Shown: positions 16,916 to 27,547 of the stretch, in pieces | Numbering within the stretch: position 1 is the stretch's first letter | Layout of the letters: each line of letters starts with the position of its first letter | DNA from: Actinosynnema sp. ALI-1.44 | GTDB taxonomy: Bacteria > Actinomycetota > Actinomycetes > Mycobacteriales > Pseudonocardiaceae | Direction of reading: 5' to 3' | DNA length: 64,000 nt | Assembly: GCF_001984155.1 (NCBI RefSeq) | Contig: NZ_MTQO01000045.1 | Location: 186,001 to 250,000 of the forward strand | Notes under the pieces: model-generated | What the model was told of the DNA's origin: nothing | Seen by the model: only the letters and a program-made list of their open reading frames with translations | The model's database searches: none | Made by a program: the position numbers and the translations under genes

Positions 16916-19900
16916 ATGGGGCGGCCACAACTACCTGACCACCTGGGCGTACTGCTGACCGACGAGCCTGTCGTCGACTTGTACTCGCACGGCCCGTGGC
17001 GTGTGCCGGACGGGCTGTTCGAAGAGATCGCCGAACGGGCGCGTGTGCTTAACAGCGACCCGCGGGTGGCCGAACTGCCGTACTCCCTGACTGATTTCTA
17101 CGGTGGACCGGCCACTGTCGTCGGTGCCGAGCTGTGGTGCGTCATCCCTTATCTGTCCGGCGTCGCCGCCGTGCGCGGGGGCAACCGCGCGGATCTTGAA
17201 GCTGAGCTGTTGAGCGCGTTCCGCGCCGAGCAGATCCCGGTCAACCGCGAGCCGACGTGGTTCACCGCGCGCACCAACAAGTTCCGCCCGCCCGGCGACT
17301 GGCTCGTCGCGGCGGCCGGTGACGACCCCGGCAAGCGCGAGCTGGCGTTCCAGCTGGCTCGGGAGTGCCTGGACGTCTTCGCCGGGATCGAGCCGTTCGA
17401 ACGGCGCCGCCAGGCGGCCATCAAGCTGTACGAACTGCCGAAGCCCGAGGTCGACGGCCTCGTCCCGTACGCGAACCTGGTCACCACCTGGGCCCGCTCG
17501 GCCACCGACGAGATCCTGGCCGACCTGCCCGAACTGGCCGGCACGGTGAACCACCTGGAGTGGGTGGTCGGCGGGTTCGTCGCGGCGCACGACCGGCTGC
17601 GCGCGGCGATCTCCGGCTGGGAGGCCGCCGCCGGGATCGCGTGTGTGCTGCAGCAGGTGGGCATTTGGGAGAGCCCGGCCGAGTTCGCGGTGTTCACCGA
17701 CGCGGCGCTGTACGAGAACGTCAAGAAGTACATCGGCCAGCCGTTCGCCGAGAGCTGGGCGAACGAGGTCCGCGCCTGGCTGGCCCGTGGCCTGGTCGAG
17801 GGCGAGGCGGACGCGTGCCGGGCGTGGCTGGACATGGCCACGCGGCTGGAGGCCTGTTTCCGCGGCCTGCCCGAAGGGCCCAACTCCGCCGGGTCGCAGC
17901 TGCCGGTGACCAGTTTCCAGCGGACCGTCCGCGAGATGTTCGCCCGGCGCCCGCTGACGAACCCGCTGGAGAAGCGCTTCGGGGTGGTGGTCGCGCCACG
18001 GCGCCAGGAGCCCGCCGCACCGCAACGGCCGGAGTTCTCGCTGGTGGGACAGGCCGAGCTGGCCGCGGCCGTGCGGGATCTGATGGTGGACCGGCCGGGC
18101 GTGGAACGCCAGGTGCGGCTGATGGTGACCGGGCCGGACGCGTCCGGGCGCCGGACGGCCGTGAGCGCGCTGATCCAGAACCTCGTGGACAAGCGTGTCG
18201 TGGCGGCGTCGCGCTGGGTGTCCGACCCGATCTACACCACGCTCGACGCGAGCGGCGCGCTGCAGCAGCTGACCAGGGACGTCCGCGAGTGCCTCGCCGA
18301 GCGGACGCTGATGGTCATCGACGGGCTCGATCGGATCGTGGGCTTTGAGCGGTGCGGCACGGCGGTGGCCGAGGAGCTGCGCCGCAGCCTCAAACGGCAC
18401 CCGGAGCTCAACGTCATCGCCGTCTGCGGCCCCGGCGGCGACACCAGGTTGTTCGACACGAACCCGGCTTTGTATCAACTCTTCACAGTGGCGCGGACGA
18501 CCGAGTTCACCGACAAGCACTATGCGGAACTGCTTAAAAGGGCGGTGGCGCGGCGGGGTGCGACGATCAGCCGCGCGGTCGGCCTCGCCGCCGGTGTCCT
18601 GCTCACCCGGACTCCCCCGCTGCTGAACCTGCGCGGCGCCCGGCTGGTCGAGCACCTGGCCGAGCAGTCGGTCCTGGCCGCGCGCAAACGCGCCAAGGTC
18701 GGGCCGTCGCGGTCGGTCAGCGTGACCGAGGTTGACCTGCCGCGCCAGCTCGTGCCCGGTGACCTCGCCGGGTCCGACCCGCAGGCCGAGCTGGACTCGT
18801 GCATCGGCCTGGAGAACATCAAGCGTGAGCTGGCGCTGCTGGTGGCCGAGGAGAAGGCGCACCGGATGCGCCGCGAAGCCGGGATGGTGGTGGACGCGCG
18901 AGCCCGCCACATGGTGTTCACCGGCCCACCCGGGACGGGCAAAACGATGGTGGCGCGCATTCTCGGCCGCATGTTCGCGGCGACCGGCGTGCTGTCGTCC
19001 GGTCACATCGTGGTGGTCGACCGGGCGGACCTGGTGCACGGTGAAGGCTGGGAGATCGGGCCCCGGGTCCGGCGGCTGGTCGACCGGGCTGTCGGTGGGG
19101 TGCTGTGCGTCGAGTCGGCACACGAGCTGCAGCCGAGCGAGGACGACTGGCGCAACCGCGAGACGGTCAACGCCCTGGTGGCCGCCGTGCAGAGCCACGC
19201 GAAGGACCTCGTGGTCGTGCTGACCGGACCGGACGCGGGCGTCAACGGCCTGCTGAAGTCCGAGCCGGACCTGGCCGCGTACTTCCCGTCCGTCCTGCGG
19301 TTCCCGGCGCTGACCGAGGACAGCTTCGTGACGCTGTTCGAGGCCAGGGCCGCGGCCGCCGGGTTCACCCTGCACGACGGCGTGCTGCAGAAGGTCCGCA
19401 GTCTGGTGGCGTCCACGCCGACCGGCAACGCCCGGCTCGCGATCGGGCTGCTCGAACGCGCCATCGCCCGGCAGGCCCGGCGGGTGCTGGCCGACGGTGT
19501 GGTCGGCGCGGACGAGTCGCTGCACGAGATCCTCACCGACGACGTGCCCGACACGCTGGCCACCACGTCTTGGGTGGAGTTGCCCAACGACCCGCTGTCG
19601 GAGATCGACAAGTTGATCGGCCTCGACTCCGTCAAGCACGAGGTCCGGCTGCTGGTGTCGGAGGCCAAGGCCGACCGGATGCGCCGCGAGGCCGGGATCC
19701 CGCTGGCCTCCCCCACGCGCCACCTCGTCTTCACCGGCAGCCCGGGTACCGCGAAGACGACCATGGCCCGGCTGCTCGCGGCGGTCTACGCCAAACTCGG
19801 GCTGCTGTCGTCCGGGCACCTGGTCGAGGTCTCCCGCGGCGACCTGATCGGCGAGTACCTCGGTCAGACGGCGCCGAAGGTGCGCGCCGCGGTGGCCAAG

Positions 19901-20422
19901 GCACTCGGCGGGGTGCTGTTCATCGACGAGGCGTATTCGCTGACCGAGGCGTGGTACGACGACTACGGCTCGGAGGCGATCGCCGAGCTGATCAAGCTGA
20001 TGGAGGAGAACCGGGAGGACTTGGTGGTCATCGTGGCCGGCTACGACGGCAAGATGGCCAAGTTCATGGACAAGAACCCGGGCCTGGCGTCCCGGTTCCC
20101 GTCCAAGCTGCGGTTCCCGGACTACAGCGACGACGAGCTGGTCGCGATCTTCACGGCGATGACGTCGAAAGCGGGCTACGAGCTGCACCCCGACGTGGTC
20201 CCGGCGTTCCGGTCGTTGCTCAGGCGGACCCCGCGCGGCGAGTCGTTCGGCAACGGCCGGTTCGTGCGGAACGTGTTCGACCGGGCGGTGGCTCTCCAGG
20301 GCCACCGGATCACCAGCGACGACGAGTCGTCGCCGGAGCCGGAAGTGCGGCTGCTGCTGGCCGCCGACCTGCCCGAGTCGCAGGACACCGGCCACGATGT
20401 GCCAACTGGCCAATACCTCTGA
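16916..20422 (+). CDS. Multi-module CbxX/CfqX-type AAA+ ATPase
   Basis: A 1168-residue cytoplasmic protein. Residues 1 to about 370 are helical with no recognised domain. Three ATPase-like modules follow: about 375-600 with a degenerate P-loop (TGPDASGRRTA, about 404) and VIDGLDRI; about 640-890, CbxX-like, with a good Walker A (GPPGTGKT, about 670) but a ruined Walker B (VLCVESAHEL, about 728); and about 910-1150, CbxX-like, with a good Walker B (LFIDEAYSL, about 1000) but a slightly altered Walker A (GSPGTAKT, about 941). The paired CbxX domains resemble type VII secretion EccA or spore-associated ATPases. No SD precedes the ATG and no secretion genes are adjacent. Role unknown. Confidence 0.75.
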   Translation: MGRPQLPDHLGVLLTDEPVVDLYSHGPWRVPDGLFEEIAERARVLNSDPRVAELPYSLTDFYGGPATVVGAELWCVIPYLSGVAAVRGGNRADLEAELLSAFRAEQIPVNREPTWFTARTNKFRPPGDWLVAAAGDDPGKRELAFQLARECLDVFAGIEPFERRRQAAIKLYELPKPEVDGLVPYANLVTTWARSATDEILADLPELAGTVNHLEWVVGGFVAAHDRLRAAISGWEAAAGIACVLQQVGIWESPAEFAVFTDAALYENVKKYIGQPFAESWANEVRAWLARGLVEGEADACRAWLDMATRLEACFRGLPEGPNSAGSQLPVTSFQRTVREMFARRPLTNPLEKRFGVVVAPRRQEPAAPQRPEFSLVGQAELAAAVRDLMVDRPGVERQVRLMVTGPDASGRRTAVSALIQNLVDKRVVAASRWVSDPIYTTLDASGALQQLTRDVRECLAERTLMVIDGLDRIVGFERCGTAVAEELRRSLKRHPELNVIAVCGPGGDTRLFDTNPALYQLFTVARTTEFTDKHYAELLKRAVARRGATISRAVGLAAGVLLTRTPPLLNLRGARLVEHLAEQSVLAARKRAKVGPSRSVSVTEVDLPRQLVPGDLAGSDPQAELDSCIGLENIKRELALLVAEEKAHRMRREAGMVVDARARHMVFTGPPGTGKTMVARILGRMFAATGVLSSGHIVVVDRADLVHGEGWEIGPRVRRLVDRAVGGVLCVESAHELQPSEDDWRNRETVNALVAAVQSHAKDLVVVLTGPDAGVNGLLKSEPDLAAYFPSVLRFPALTEDSFVTLFEARAAAAGFTLHDGVLQKVRSLVASTPTGNARLAIGLLERAIARQARRVLADGVVGADESLHEILTDDVPDTLATTSWVELPNDPLSEIDKLIGLDSVKHEVRLLVSEAKADRMRREAGIPLASPTRHLVFTGSPGTAKTTMARLLAAVYAKLGLLSSGHLVEVSRGDLIGEYLGQTAPKVRAAVAKALGGVLFIDEAYSLTEAWYDDYGSEAIAELIKLMEENREDLVVIVAGYDGKMAKFMDKNPGLASRFPSKLRFPDYSDDELVAIFTAMTSKAGYELHPDVVPAFRSLLRRTPRGESFGNGRFVRNVFDRAVALQGHRITSDDESSPEPEVRLLLAADLPESQDTGHDVPTGQYL

Positions 20423-20499: not shown

Positions 20500-21846
20500 T
20501 CAGGACGGGATGTCGGTGCGGCGGCGCATCAAGTGCGCCTGCACCGGGATGGCGGGCGGGACGACCACGCCGTTGTCGCACGGGGTGGCCAGGCAGATCT
20601 GGTTGCGGCCCGCTTCCTTGGCCGCGAGCAGCGCGGCGTCCGCGGCGAGGACCAGCCGGTCGACGTCCACACCGGATTCCGGGTAGACGGCGGCGCCCAT
20701 GGACACCGTCACGCCCTCCAGCACGATGGTCTTGCCCGTCTTGGCGTGCGTGATGGACACGGGGGTGTTGGCCAGGCGCCGTCTGATCCGTTCGCCGACC
20801 ATCTGCAGTTCCGCACTGGTCGTGCCGGGCAGGACCACCGCGAGTTCGTCGCCGCCCCAGCGCGCGGCCAGGTCGCCGCGGCGGATCTCCGTGCGGACCA
20901 CCCGGACGACCGACTGGAGCGCCTGGTCCCCGGCGGGGTGGCCGTAGCTGTTGTTGATGTCGCTGAACTTGTCGACGTCCATCATCAGCACGCCGACGTT
21001 GCCGCCGACCAGCTTGGCCCGGCTCAGTTCGGCAACGACCACCTGGGACCAGAACGTCGGCGCGGCCAGGCCGGTCTTGTCGTCGGTCCGGGCCTGGCGC
21101 TGGTACTGCGGGAGCAGCAGGTCGCGGTGCAAGGCGAGCACGGTGACCATCAGCACCGGCACCACCCACGGGTTGGACGCCTCCAGCGCGGCGACCGCGA
21201 TCCCCAGGCCGAGCGCGGCGGCCACGACCAACTGTTCGGACAGGTCGCCCAGCGCGGTGCGGGCCGTGGTGTCCGGTGAGGACAGCAGGATCGCGCCGAC
21301 GACCAAGGCGTAGTTGATGAGCCACCACGTGGTGGCCGCGGCGACCACGATGACCAGGGACCACGGTCCCACCGGGACACGTGGCGCGTTGTCCAGGCCA
21401 CCGGCCCTGAGCACGGCCGCCGCGCACGCGCTGGCGATGACGAACGTGGCGGTGGAGAAGATCTTGCGGTGCCAGACGAAGGGGCCGTAGATCCGCACGC
21501 CGCAGTACGTGTACGCGATCACGATGAGAGCGATGACGAGCGGCAGCGGCAGCAACAGCACGCCGGTGAACACCCAGAGTGACTTCAGGTTGGTGTACGG
21601 GACGCCTTCGCCGGTCTGTTCCCGCCTGCGTTCGATACTCCGCGCCGCCTCCAAATGGAGCAGCGAGGCCGCGGCGAGGACCGCGAACCACACCCATTCG
21701 GTGCGACTTACGGTCACATGCAGGCTCGCCATCACTGTGACGAGGACGGCTACCACGTTCGTGACCAGCACATATGCCAACGACGCCGGTGGCAGCGCCC
21801 ACAGTCGCCACTTTCGGGGCGAGACCCAGCGCAGCCTGGGGTTCAC
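20500..21846 (-). CDS. Membrane-anchored diguanylate cyclase (GGDEF domain)
   Basis: A 448-residue protein with an N-terminal half of six or more membrane helices and a C-terminal GGDEF domain that would make cyclic di-GMP from GTP. The active loop is RWGGDELAVVLPG (GGDEL, catalytic Glu kept). The RRGD just before it fits the inhibitory I-site, and MMDVDKFSDINNSYGHPAGD is the usual metal and substrate segment. ATG 21852 immediately follows GGAG, whereas GTG 21846 is six bases away and is preferred. It diverges from the GNEWF-repeat peptide gene across 125 bases and could share its regulation. Confidence 0.85.
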   Translation of the reverse strand: MNPRLRWVSPRKWRLWALPPASLAYVLVTNVVAVLVTVMASLHVTVSRTEWVWFAVLAAASLLHLEAARSIERRREQTGEGVPYTNLKSLWVFTGVLLLPLPLVIALIVIAYTYCGVRIYGPFVWHRKIFSTATFVIASACAAAVLRAGGLDNAPRVPVGPWSLVIVVAAATTWWLINYALVVGAILLSSPDTTARTALGDLSEQLVVAAALGLGIAVAALEASNPWVVPVLMVTVLALHRDLLLPQYQRQARTDDKTGLAAPTFWSQVVVAELSRAKLVGGNVGVLMMDVDKFSDINNSYGHPAGDQALQSVVRVVRTEIRRGDLAARWGGDELAVVLPGTTSAELQMVGERIRRRLANTPVSITHAKTGKTIVLEGVTVSMGAAVYPESGVDVDRLVLAADAALLAAKEAGRNQICLATPCDNGVVVPPAIPVQAHLMRRRTDIPS

Positions 21847-21971
21847 ACTCATCTCCAGGCCCGTATCTCGAACGCGGGTCACCCGGTGAACGGTAATCGG
21901 CCAAGTCACCCGCTGTCTTTCGGCCAGTCGGGGGTCTTGTTCCGGTCCGATGTGTACAGAGAGGAACGACC

Positions 21972-22103
21972 GTGAACGGTAACGAGTGGGTGCGGCGCGG
22001 CAACGAATGGTTCACCGGCAACGAGTGGTTCGCCGGTAATGAGTGGTTCGCGGGTAACGAGTGGTTCACCGGCAACGAGTGGCTCTACCAGGCATCCTGC
22101 TGA
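21972..22103 (+). CDS. 43-residue peptide of GNEWF hexapeptide repeats
   Basis: A small gene missed by length cut-offs: GTG start with GAGGAA five bases upstream, 43 residues, TGA stop, then a 10-bp stem hairpin 13 bases on. The peptide has GNEW six times; from residue 10 it is a regular hexapeptide repeat GNEWF(T/A) ending GNEWLYQASC. Six tryptophans (14 percent), one C-terminal cysteine, no signal peptide. Repeat units use different synonymous codons (GGC/GGT, AAC/AAT, GAA/GAG) while the residues stay fixed, evidence of selection on protein. No family recognised. A repeat-type RiPP precursor or a structural microprotein are guesses; no RiPP enzyme is adjacent. Confidence 0.7.
   Translation: MNGNEWVRRGNEWFTGNEWFAGNEWFAGNEWFTGNEWLYQASC
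21999..22088 (+). repeat. Five tandem 18-bp units encoding GNEWF(T/A)
   Basis: Five consecutive 18-base units, each translating to GNEW plus two residues (FT, FA, FA, FT, LY). The units differ mainly at third codon positions. A shorter GNEW copy sits just before them at 21978-21989. Confidence 0.9.
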
Positions 22104-22116
22104 TGCGGCAAGGACA

Positions 22117-22150
22117 GGCGGCGGGCTTGGGAGTCGCTGCGCCCGCCGCC
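22117..22150 (+). terminator. Terminator of the GNEWF-repeat gene
   Basis: GGCGGCGGGC (22117-22126) and GCCCGCCGCC (22141-22150) form a perfect 10-bp G/C stem with a 14-base loop, 13 bases after the peptide stop codon. Confidence 0.75.
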
Positions 22151-22325
22151 TCGGCGCCGCCAGTCACGGCCGCCCGGTCCGGTCGTTGAGCCGTCCGGGC
22201 GAACGTCCGCGAATGCCACAGAACCCGAGTTCGCTCACTCCCCGTAGTTTTGTGGTGTGGCACACCCGGTGGTTCGTCGAGACACCGCGCAGCTTGCTGT
22301 CGTCATAGGACACGCTTTCCCGCGC

Positions 22326-22343
22326 CTACCCCAGCAGGGGTAG
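22326..22343. promoter_or_regulatory. Palindrome upstream of the 44-residue peptide gene
   Basis: CTACCCC-AGCA-GGGGTAG: perfect 7-bp arms, about 95 bases before the ATG of the small peptide. It could be an operator. Similar GGGTAG- and GGGTGAG-armed palindromes occur at 25829-25846 and 25885-25902, but their spacing differs. Confidence 0.4.
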
Positions 22344-22438
22344 ATCAGTAGCCGCCGGGCGGTAACGACCCGTGCACGGCTCGCTTCGCTCCGCGTGCGA
22401 CGCCCACTATCCGGTGTAGCGCGAGCGAAAGGAATTCC

Positions 22439-22573
22439 ATGCGTTCAACCATCGTGCGCAGGACCTTTGCCACCACGGGTGTCGTGACGATCGGACTCGC
22501 CATCACAGCAGGCCCGGCCATGGCAGCGGTCGGCTTCGGTCTGCTGCGTAACCGTCGCAAGAGCACGGTCTGA
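22439..22573 (+). CDS. 44-residue secreted or membrane peptide
   Basis: A small gene with AAGGA six bases before the ATG and a 13-bp stem hairpin just after the stop. The peptide has a basic N terminus (MRSTIVRRTF), a hydrophobic core TTGVVTIGLAITAGPAMAA, and a cationic tail LLRNRRKSTV. Read as a signal peptide with an AMA-A cleavage site it would release a cationic peptide of about 15 residues. Read as a membrane anchor it is a one-helix protein with a positive cytoplasmic tail. No family recognised. It faces the LuxR-type regulator gene across two hairpins. Confidence 0.65.
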   Translation: MRSTIVRRTFATTGVVTIGLAITAGPAMAAVGFGLLRNRRKSTV

Positions 22574-22581
22574 CAGTGCCC

Positions 22582-22620
22582 GGTGGGTGTGTGGGGACCG
22601 CCGTGCTCCACACACCCACC
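22582..22620 (+). terminator. Terminator of the 44-residue peptide gene
   Basis: GGTGGGTGTGTGG (22582-22594) pairs perfectly with CCACACACCCACC (22608-22620): 13 bp with a 13-base loop, starting nine bases after the stop codon. Confidence 0.8.
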
Positions 22621-22656
22621 GACCGCGGTTGCCGCCGGGGGCGACCGCGTGAGAAG

Positions 22657-22696
22657 ACCGGCCTGGCTGGCCACGGGGGCGTCCAGCCAGGCCGGT
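22657..22696 (-). terminator. Terminator of the LuxR-type regulator operon
   Basis: ACCGGCCTGGCTGG (22657-22670) pairs perfectly with CCAGCCAGGCCGGT (22683-22696), 14 bp with a 12-base loop, 20 bases beyond the regulator stop on the minus strand. Together with the hairpin at 22582-22620 it separates two convergent units. Confidence 0.8.
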
Positions 22697-22715
22697 TCTT
22701 CGTGCCAGGGGAAGG

Positions 22716-25987: not shown

Positions 25988-27547
25988 ATGACCACTGAGA
26001 ACGCGAGCGACTTCGACCTGATCCGTCAGGTCAGACAGGGTGACAACGCCGGTTACCAAATGCTTTACGAGCGGCACAGCGCGGCCGCTCGCAATCTCGC
26101 GCGCCACCTGACGAGGGACCCGAACATGGCCGACGACCTGGTGTCCGAGGCATTCATGAAGGTCCTCCAGGCGCTCAAGGGCAACGGCGGGCCGGATCAC
26201 GCATTCCGCACCTATTTGCTGACCACTCTGCGTAATACCGCCTATGAACACGGCCGCCGGGACAAGCGAGTCACGTTCGTCGACGACGACACAGTGTTCG
26301 AACAGGGCGAAACGGTGGCCGACTCGGCGAGCATCGCGCCCGAACGCACCCTCATCACCGAGGCGTACCGATTGCTGCCGGAACGCTGGCGCATGGTGCT
26401 CTGGTACACCGAGGTGGAGGGCTACCGACCCGCTGCGGTCGCGCAGCTCATGGGTATGACGCCCAACGGCGTCGCCGCGCTGTCCTACCGCGCCCGCGAA
26501 GGCCTGCGTCAGGCGTATCTACGCGCGCATGTGGCGACAGTGGACGCAGCGTTGTGCCGAGCGTCGGTCGATCGCCTCGGTGCGTGGACTCGGAACGCCT
26601 TGTCGCGGCGCGAGCGCACCCAACTCGAAGTGCACCTGGACAGCTGCGCGCGTTGCCGTGCGCTCGCCGCGGAACTGACGGAGATCAACACCGCGTTGCC
26701 CGCGCTGGTTGCCATCTCGGTGCTCGGGGTCGCCGGTGCCGGATACCTGGCCACCGCGCCAGCCGCGTCGGCAGCCGGGGCCCTCGCGGCTGTGTCGACT
26801 GGGGCGGGCGTCGTTGGTGGGGCGTCGAAGGGCGCCAGCACGCAACTGGTCGGTGCGTCGGTGTCAGGTCTCGCGATGGCTGTCACGACGATCGTCAGCC
26901 TGTCCGCCACCGGTGCCCCGCACGCGATCGCGGTGGCGGACGAGGAACCAGCGAACGTCCGCGTCACCCCGGGTCCGCCTCCGGTCGCCCCGGCCCCGAT
27001 CCCGGTCCCGACCCCGGCTTCGGTCCCGCAGCAGGAACCCGTGGACACGACACCCCAGCCGTCGTCCACGACACAACCCGGCAGAACCACACCGCCCACG
27101 ACGACGCAGGTGCTGCCGTCCCCGCCGACCACGGCTCCCCCACCCATCACGACACCACCCACAACGGCACCACTCACAACGGCACCGGTCACCACGCCGA
27201 AACCGCAGCCCTACAAGTGGTCGTTCGGCGTGACCACCGAGCGGAAGCTCATCAAGTGGGTGAAGCTGGCCATCACCGTGCCTGGCACCGCCGAGAAACT
27301 GACCCCGGTGGACGTCATGGTCGCCCTGCCCAAAGCCAGCATCGTGAAGAGCAGGACCTGTCAGACGGCCGGTGCCACGGCGCACTGCACCGGCAAGGCG
27401 GGCGCGGGCCAGGATCTGGTGGTCGACCTGGAGGTGGTCACGTGGCCGGGCCAGGACCGGACGGCGACCGTCAAACTGACGGCCGACGGCCAGGTCGTGA
27501 CCCGAACCGTGACCCTGCCGCCGTGGGGGTTCTCGCAGCAGCGGTAG
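25988..27547 (+). CDS. ECF sigma factor fused to a zinc-finger, membrane anti-sigma domain
   Basis: A single 519-residue protein. Residues 10-95 form sigma region 2 (NMADDLVSEAFMKVL) and 120-180 region 4 (AAVAQLMGMTPNGVAALSYRAREGLRQAY). Next come a ZAS-type zinc motif H216-x3-C220-x2-C223 (HLDSCARC), two hydrophobic segments (about 236-270 and 288-310), a Pro/Thr-rich spacer (about 325-405) and a C-terminal domain of about 110 residues with two cysteines, presumably outside the membrane. The polymerase subunit would be tethered to the membrane and need proteolysis or a signal through its own tail to act. ATG follows GAGGAG. It ends flush against paaE. Confidence 0.88.
   Translation: MTTENASDFDLIRQVRQGDNAGYQMLYERHSAAARNLARHLTRDPNMADDLVSEAFMKVLQALKGNGGPDHAFRTYLLTTLRNTAYEHGRRDKRVTFVDDDTVFEQGETVADSASIAPERTLITEAYRLLPERWRMVLWYTEVEGYRPAAVAQLMGMTPNGVAALSYRAREGLRQAYLRAHVATVDAALCRASVDRLGAWTRNALSRRERTQLEVHLDSCARCRALAAELTEINTALPALVAISVLGVAGAGYLATAPAASAAGALAAVSTGAGVVGGASKGASTQLVGASVSGLAMAVTTIVSLSATGAPHAIAVADEEPANVRVTPGPPPVAPAPIPVPTPASVPQQEPVDTTPQPSSTTQPGRTTPPTTTQVLPSPPTTAPPPITTPPTTAPLTTAPVTTPKPQPYKWSFGVTTERKLIKWVKLAITVPGTAEKLTPVDVMVALPKASIVKSRTCQTAGATAHCTGKAGAGQDLVVDLEVVTWPGQDRTATVKLTADGQVVTRTVTLPPWGFSQQR

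Follow-up and report, generated by a model that had tools for sequence, protein, structure and literature searches.

Why would an actinomycete keep a 43-codon gene that repeats the tetrapeptide GNEW six times, set back to back with the gene for a membrane diguanylate cyclase? The gene lies in the window, by which we mean the whole 64,000-nucleotide stretch of Actinosynnema sp. ALI-1.44 DNA analysed here. The features on which the argument rests are the following.

21972 to 22103, plus strand: GNEW-repeat peptide gene of 43 codons, with a GTG start and six GNEW units, ending in ...QASC
21958 to 21964, plus strand: Shine-Dalgarno-like (SD) AGAGAGG, 7 nt 5' of the GTG and identical across seven loci of the genus
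21893 to 21917, plus strand: promoter-like pair GTAAT ... TGTC, from an alignment of 16 loci and common to the GNEW genes of other genera
21853 to 21971, no strand: intergenic region from which the cyclase and GNEW genes diverge, strongly conserved within the genus
22117 to 22150, plus strand: terminator-like 10-bp hairpin directly 3' of the GNEW stop, retained in orthologues
20500 to 21852, minus strand: divergent membrane diguanylate cyclase gene with a GGDEF domain; the ORF could extend to 21909

The plus-strand translation of 21972-22103 is VNGNEWVRRGNEWFTGNEWFAGNEWFAGNEWFTGNEWLYQASC, followed by a stop, and the GNEW units begin at 21978, 21999, 22017, 22035, 22053, and 22071. The first-pass annotation had described this arrangement of GTG start, SD, six units, stop, and hairpin, and every element of it was recovered. 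It had also described a regular 6-residue period, which holds for four spacings; the first is seven residues long. TRF scores for the array are 121-163. The hairpin arms (22117-22126 and 22141-22150) show at least one paired change among the orthologues, C-to-T with G-to-A. The peptide matched no known family in Pfam or NCBIfam, in keeping with the earlier failure to recognize one. Five Rfam matches in 21700-22700 were at chance level, none near the gathering score, and were discarded. Beyond the cyclase gene, 16916-20422 (plus strand) encodes a 1168-residue protein with two CbbX/SpoVK/EccA-like AAA modules, a gene seen in the same place in the window and in six orthologous loci of the genus. 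A 44-residue ORF at 22439-22573 (plus strand) has a signal-like segment and a basic C-terminus; a similar sequence occurs in L090 and none was seen in the other orthologous loci. Finally, 25988-27547 (plus strand) encodes a 519-residue protein in which an ECF-type sigma factor is joined to a zf-HC2 domain and to a long tail rich in Pro and Thr.

Is the repeat maintained as a protein? A profile search found the GNEW gene intact and without stops in seven of eight genomes of its genus, with few amino-acid changes; the genus is called Kibdelosporangium here after the locus records, which include K. persicum, K. aridum, K. philippinense, and K. banguiense. A record titled Rhodococcus rhodnii NRRL B-16535 (L029, JOAA01000003.1) carries a Kibdelosporangium-like locus and is probably a mislabelled strain. 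The genus orthologues have six or seven units and a start that alternates between GTG and ATG, behind an upstream block and SD that are nearly unchanged. The window gene and its nearest orthologue differ by six synonymous changes in 22.7 sites and one non-synonymous change in 103.3 sites. The other three equal-length pairs tested gave 3-4 synonymous differences in ~23 sites and 0-4 non-synonymous in ~106, and the pairs with four involve the C-terminal tail of L028. Across 88 GNEW units from 16 loci, gathered by the GNEW motif itself, Gly is written with four codons (61/14/7/6), Asn with two (83/5), and Glu with two (61/27). The synonymous variation on fixed residues that the first-pass annotation had read as selection on the protein is thus borne out, and the seven genus orthologues, inspected for stops and frameshifts, are all open. 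Together these substitutions point firmly to a gene conserved at the protein level. The C-terminal Cys, singled out in the same annotation, is kept in the seven genus members and in none of the nine GNEW proteins of other genera.

Beyond the genus, a DNA pattern of two neighboring G[N/S]EW units was scanned in 390 genomes of the family and matched 19, versus two for a backwards-read control pattern. Inspection left real GNEW genes in 16 genomes (seven of the genus, six of genus code g16, two of g22, and one of g8), and a GSEWH version was found in g68 (locus L041). The linkers vary, as does copy number (three to seven); what recurs is G, N, E, and W. Among the rejected pattern matches, G124 and G159 lack any frame containing two units, and the pair in G115 falls within a 293-residue low-complexity frame; the cyclase is not nearby in any of the three. 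Weak tblastn matches (L013-L025) lie in unrelated frames, and a NEWF...GNEW match in Rossellomorea is inside a long unrelated ORF. Of 13 distant profile matches (L038-L050), four were kept (L038, L041, L042, and L043) and nine were rejected at inspection, one of which, L049 (G185), was later reinstated through the DNA pattern.

The constant companion of the GNEW gene is the cyclase. The two genes diverge in 16 of 16 loci, with the GGDEF gene always of one subfamily (15 recognized by BLASTP and that of L088 by tblastn); the pairings span four genus codes, and the same partner adjoins the GSEW relative. The divergence reported for the window is a fixed pairing. The window protein matches Pfam GGDEF (PF00990, E 2e-37), and hydropathy places about seven hydrophobic segments N-terminal to this domain. 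Its signature is RRGD....RWGGDEL, in which GGDEL replaces GGDEF and is preceded by five residues by RxxD, the inhibition site (I-site) of diguanylate cyclases. By GGDEF signature and I-site the partner is a predicted diguanylate cyclase, and c-di-GMP synthesis is its predicted activity. It resembles MASE-type membrane diguanylate cyclases in joining a multi-helix N-terminal membrane domain to GGDEF, and differs from them in that its N-terminal domain has no Pfam match and a dedicated peptide gene lies alongside. Three of 11 cyclase N-terminal domains matched MASE9 (PF20972) weakly (best E 1.3e-4), and the one whole-protein match given with a cut-off, that of L091, scored 16.5, below the 24.3 required. 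A profile of the domain found no relative among PDB sequences, and modelling the window cyclase from six alignment rows gave a pLDDT of 35, too low to be of use. With the N-terminal membrane domain profile the subfamily was found in 55 of 90 relatives, and each of the eight genus genomes has five to eight copies.

What occupies the same slot beside other members of this subfamily? G005, the sole genus genome without GNEW, has three MFS-cyclase pairs with other tiny SD-led ORFs between them: one of 27 codons containing two PTDW units, one with about ten codons of DQNW repeat, and MRGIEF. Among 100 further cyclase loci curated by hand, 70 contain tiny peptide genes, on the strand that runs divergently to the cyclase; the 100 loci were picked from a longer match list before any sequence was seen, as the first 97 by rank not already in hand and three of the next 13 (L221-L223; ten were skipped). 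The typical gene has only six or seven codons and a strong ribosome-binding site, and often lies with an MFS-exporter-like gene on one side and the cyclase gene on the other. Examples are MRGQNW, MRGKDW, MREKIW, MRDSNW, MRDNNWT, MRGVEY, MGGIEY, MRSIEF, MRNRDT, MRTREH, MASTKEQ, and MSSRDF.

An automatic test, requiring a 6-7-codon ORF behind an SD that matches at five or more bases, was applied to 98 slots, L128 and L197 being too short for statistics. It found such ORFs in 61 slots (115 ORFs), versus two when these slots were read on the other strand and, in 30 dinucleotide shuffles, 2.1 on average and six at most. ORF lengths peak at six codons (94 observed, 1.0 expected) and seven (21 observed, 0.9 expected). 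As a control, the slots upstream of 176 genes taken from the window and from 11 fetched loci, called like the neighboring genes with a simple gene caller, gave one match. The excess is some thirty-fold, among related loci that are not independent. The hexapeptides belong to a large, unannotated family whose genes, far below the usual annotation limits and present in tandem copies, ordinary gene finders would miss. Thirty of the 100 loci, one of them a 318-base stub, have no recognized peptide, nor do four of the seven cyclase family members of the window genome, the GNEW locus being counted among the seven. Short ORFs like MCTTETCR in one paralogue group were judged to be due to chance.

Many of these peptides are multiplied. 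Tandem mini-genes, each with its own SD, encode ten copies of MSSRDF, eight of MRNRAW, eight of MRDNNWT, and 11 of M?NRDN. The longest array has 19 SKDL-type peptides of five or six residues (L203:460-1740), in which five-codon MSKDL and six-codon M[R/H/C/S]SKDL mostly alternate. Mini-genes are mostly spaced about 58-96 bases apart, with a few wider gaps of up to 167. Copies in an array encode the same peptide but differ in codons, SDs, and spacers; some adjoining units are near-identical, as recent duplicates. Elsewhere the units are joined in one frame, as dimers (MRGQNWRGQNW, MHDQNWRDQNW, MRDNNWTTRRDNNWT, and MRDTNWVLRDTNWSW) or as longer fusions (four SNNW, six PTDW, or six STDW units). 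Because these intermediates tie the hexapeptides to GNEW, the GNEW gene is best read as a fused multi-copy form. The Kibdelosporangium version has no Arg between most units, which makes it harder to see how a fused product would release them.

Do peptide and cyclase belong to each other? When the peptides were classed as ending in W, in F or Y, or in a polar residue and mapped on a tree built from the N-terminal part of the cyclase, nine class changes sufficed, versus a mean of 36.1 and a minimum of 30 in 200 shuffles of the 87 labelled rows; the tree has 117 rows and 102 columns, and 51 of its 114 inner branches are open. Peptide and cyclase thus appear to evolve together, as the two members of a peptide quorum-sensing pair do. 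The peptide gene likewise adjoins a candidate for its cognate receptor, a likeness to such pairs in adjacency.

The third element is the MFS gene, found in 58 of the 100 loci: it accompanies 56 of the 69 slots that contain a peptide and 2 of the 29 that are empty. The association is seen inside the genus (26 of 27 versus 1 of 19) and outside it (30 of 42 versus 1 of 10). All nine GNEW loci outside the genus have the MFS gene on the cyclase strand, on the other side of GNEW (L084 being the query itself, L083 partial at a contig end, and L082 in two pieces), so that the GNEW gene often lies antisense between the two. No MFS gene was found within the 16 kb examined around the seven Kibdelosporangium GNEW loci, nor in the stretch examined at the GSEW locus L041. 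The window genome has no close copy of it, the best match being 45% identical; given the seven loci without it, a neighboring exporter is not essential. An MFS gene elsewhere in the window genome (L244) has no such peptide array adjoining. Among domain models, the MFS proteins hit MFS_1 and, in three of four cases, MFS_3 above its cut-off; hits to an H+ antiporter model, EntS, Mef, and a ryptide exporter fall below curated cut-offs. The best matches are to antiporter and efflux models, an indirect hint that the peptides may be exported.

The upstream regions of GNEW genes align between genera around a GTAAY ... GTC pair, which may resemble the promoter pair of the developmental sigma factor BldN. 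Written as a regular expression, the motif was found in 14 of the 16 GNEW loci and also in 8 of the 27 remaining slots of the W type; shuffled sequence gave a mean of 0.12 and at most 1. It is also present in 11 of 29 empty slots, but in just 1 of 15 slots with FY peptides and 1 of 27 with polar ones, and so does not mark the whole family. A conserved GTAAC ... GTCAC-like block is nonetheless present at five loci with neither peptide nor MFS gene (L148, L150, L151, L169, and L175), although in L175 its start lies outside the stretch examined.

How, then, should the GNEW gene be understood? The first-pass annotation had offered a repeat-core RiPP precursor, a Trp-rich structural microprotein, and a signalling peptide. 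With the cyclase retained at every GNEW locus and tiny peptide genes beside most related cyclases, the signalling peptide fits best of the three; a structural microprotein leaves the one-unit relatives unexplained. The cyclase, earlier named merely as a neighbor, proved from these comparisons to be the key, since it was by way of the cyclase that the hexapeptides were reached. We propose, with a probability of roughly 0.6, that GNEW is a fused multi-copy member of the tiny-peptide family, each member being the cognate and probably exported signal of the adjacent cyclase. The basic unit would be one free-standing gene of six or seven codons, such as MRGQNW, multiplied as tandem mini-genes with their own SDs, by fusion into dimers, or in longer repeat ORFs like GNEW. 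Lacking a signal sequence, the peptide would be made in the cytoplasm and then leave the cell, probably through the neighboring MFS protein where there is one; a fused product like that of GNEW may be processed. The multi-helix N-terminal domain of the cyclase would bind and read the peptide at the membrane and so set c-di-GMP synthesis, up or down, making the cassette a self or population signal. Several observations weigh against this proposal: the cyclase slots with no recognized peptide, the promoter-like motif retained at some empty slots, the f31 loci with no peptide seen, and the GNEW loci of the genus and 12 of 42 peptide slots outside it that have no MFS neighbor.

Need the peptides leave the cell at all? 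They could be microproteins that stay inside the cell, bind the cyclase or else the MFS protein on its cytoplasmic side, and tune it, with repeats serving multivalency. No signal-like segment was seen in the GNEW proteins or hexapeptides, the seven genus loci lack a nearby MFS gene, and repeated units with variable linkers do resemble multivalent binding motifs. We nonetheless regard this as unlikely, if worth keeping in mind, given the concentration of MFS genes at peptide slots, the resemblance of their products to efflux proteins, and, by general reasoning, the unusually small size of a free hexapeptide for a stable intracellular regulator. The mini-ORFs might instead act as RNA, as ribosome loading sites on a transcript antisense to and between the MFS and cyclase genes, where they often lie between two co-oriented genes. 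Their strong SDs are constant, although SDs partly served to find them; amino acids, however, are kept within clades and arrays through synonymous changes and are matched to the cyclase clade, which makes this reading very improbable.

A similarly slight chance attaches to a leader peptide or attenuator of the trp type, in which translation of the Trp-rich ORF would govern the hairpin that follows. The many Trp codons and the terminator-like hairpin directly after them suit this idea, but at the GNEW loci examined no conserved same-strand gene follows the hairpin: the MFS gene is convergent in all nine loci outside the genus, and the next genes of the genus orthologues differ and are mostly convergent. 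Moreover, many relatives lack Trp (MSSRDF, MASTKEQ), and amino acids are kept across tandem copies while codons change. Could GNEW be a RiPP precursor, its units modified (for example at Trp) and released? Multi-core RiPP precursors do carry a repeated short core in one small ORF, as GNEW does, and a repeated core with Trp, Asn, and Glu and variable spacers, its four residues recurring in the 88 units collected by that motif, is what one might expect of them. RiPP precursors are also marked by a leader and a modifying enzyme in the cluster. Here most relatives are bare ORFs of 6-7 residues with no room for a leader, some of them single hexapeptides, and no modifying enzyme recurs among the neighboring gene calls, the flanks differing between genera save for the cyclase and MFS genes. 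With only these two seen to recur and the relatives leaderless, a RiPP precursor is improbable, and the signalling peptide remains the preferred reading.

Known peptide signals offer partial parallels to this reading. The yeast alpha-factor precursor contains several pheromone copies behind a secretory leader, with protease-site spacers between them. GNEW shares the several copies of one peptide in a single precursor; neither leader nor protease-site spacers were recognized here, and many members of the family are separate mini-genes. The RRNPP receptors of Firmicutes are intracellular proteins of the TPR type, and their peptides are cut from a propeptide, whereas the partner here is a multi-helix membrane domain joined to GGDEF and the peptide comes from a 6-7-codon gene or from tandem or fused copies of one. 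Both systems have a small linear peptide in matched peptide-receptor pairs, and in both the short-peptide gene adjoins that of its cognate receptor (for RRNPP systems, see PMC10075063).

We see an even chance that these loci represent an undescribed class of bacterial peptide signalling, in which leaderless, unprocessed hexapeptides from 6-7-codon genes, in tandem or fused, typically with a dedicated exporter, would each have their own membrane-cyclase receptor. No description of such genes was found in the open-access literature searched, a scope that leaves most subscription papers and all bioRxiv preprints outside. To our knowledge, most membrane diguanylate cyclases respond to signals that have yet to be identified. 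Development in Streptomyces is under the control of c-di-GMP acting through BldD, and the signals perceived by several of its c-di-GMP enzymes remain unknown, according to PMC6205966. Should the proposal be correct, one actinomycete would possess several private peptide-to-c-di-GMP channels, and its genome would spell out candidate ligands for many orphan receptors that could be synthesized and tested at once. The peptides might then be switches of development and antibiotic production. PMC4748050 gives gamma-butyrolactones and cyclic or modified peptides as the known cell signals of actinobacteria; bare hexapeptides encoded directly by genes would add a new kind to these.

The system also extends beyond the family. 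At E 1e-25 the cyclase subfamily is present in 37 of 246 genomes of the class, the window genome included, and 20 of the listed loci were examined. None of the three loci of family code f31 had a visible peptide gene; such genes were found at the single locus of family f46 and at 15 of 16 loci of family f34. Those of f34 again come in multiple copies: 12 of MRDTTWS with one MRDTTWR, eight of MRDNNWN, and up to six of MRGNSWD.
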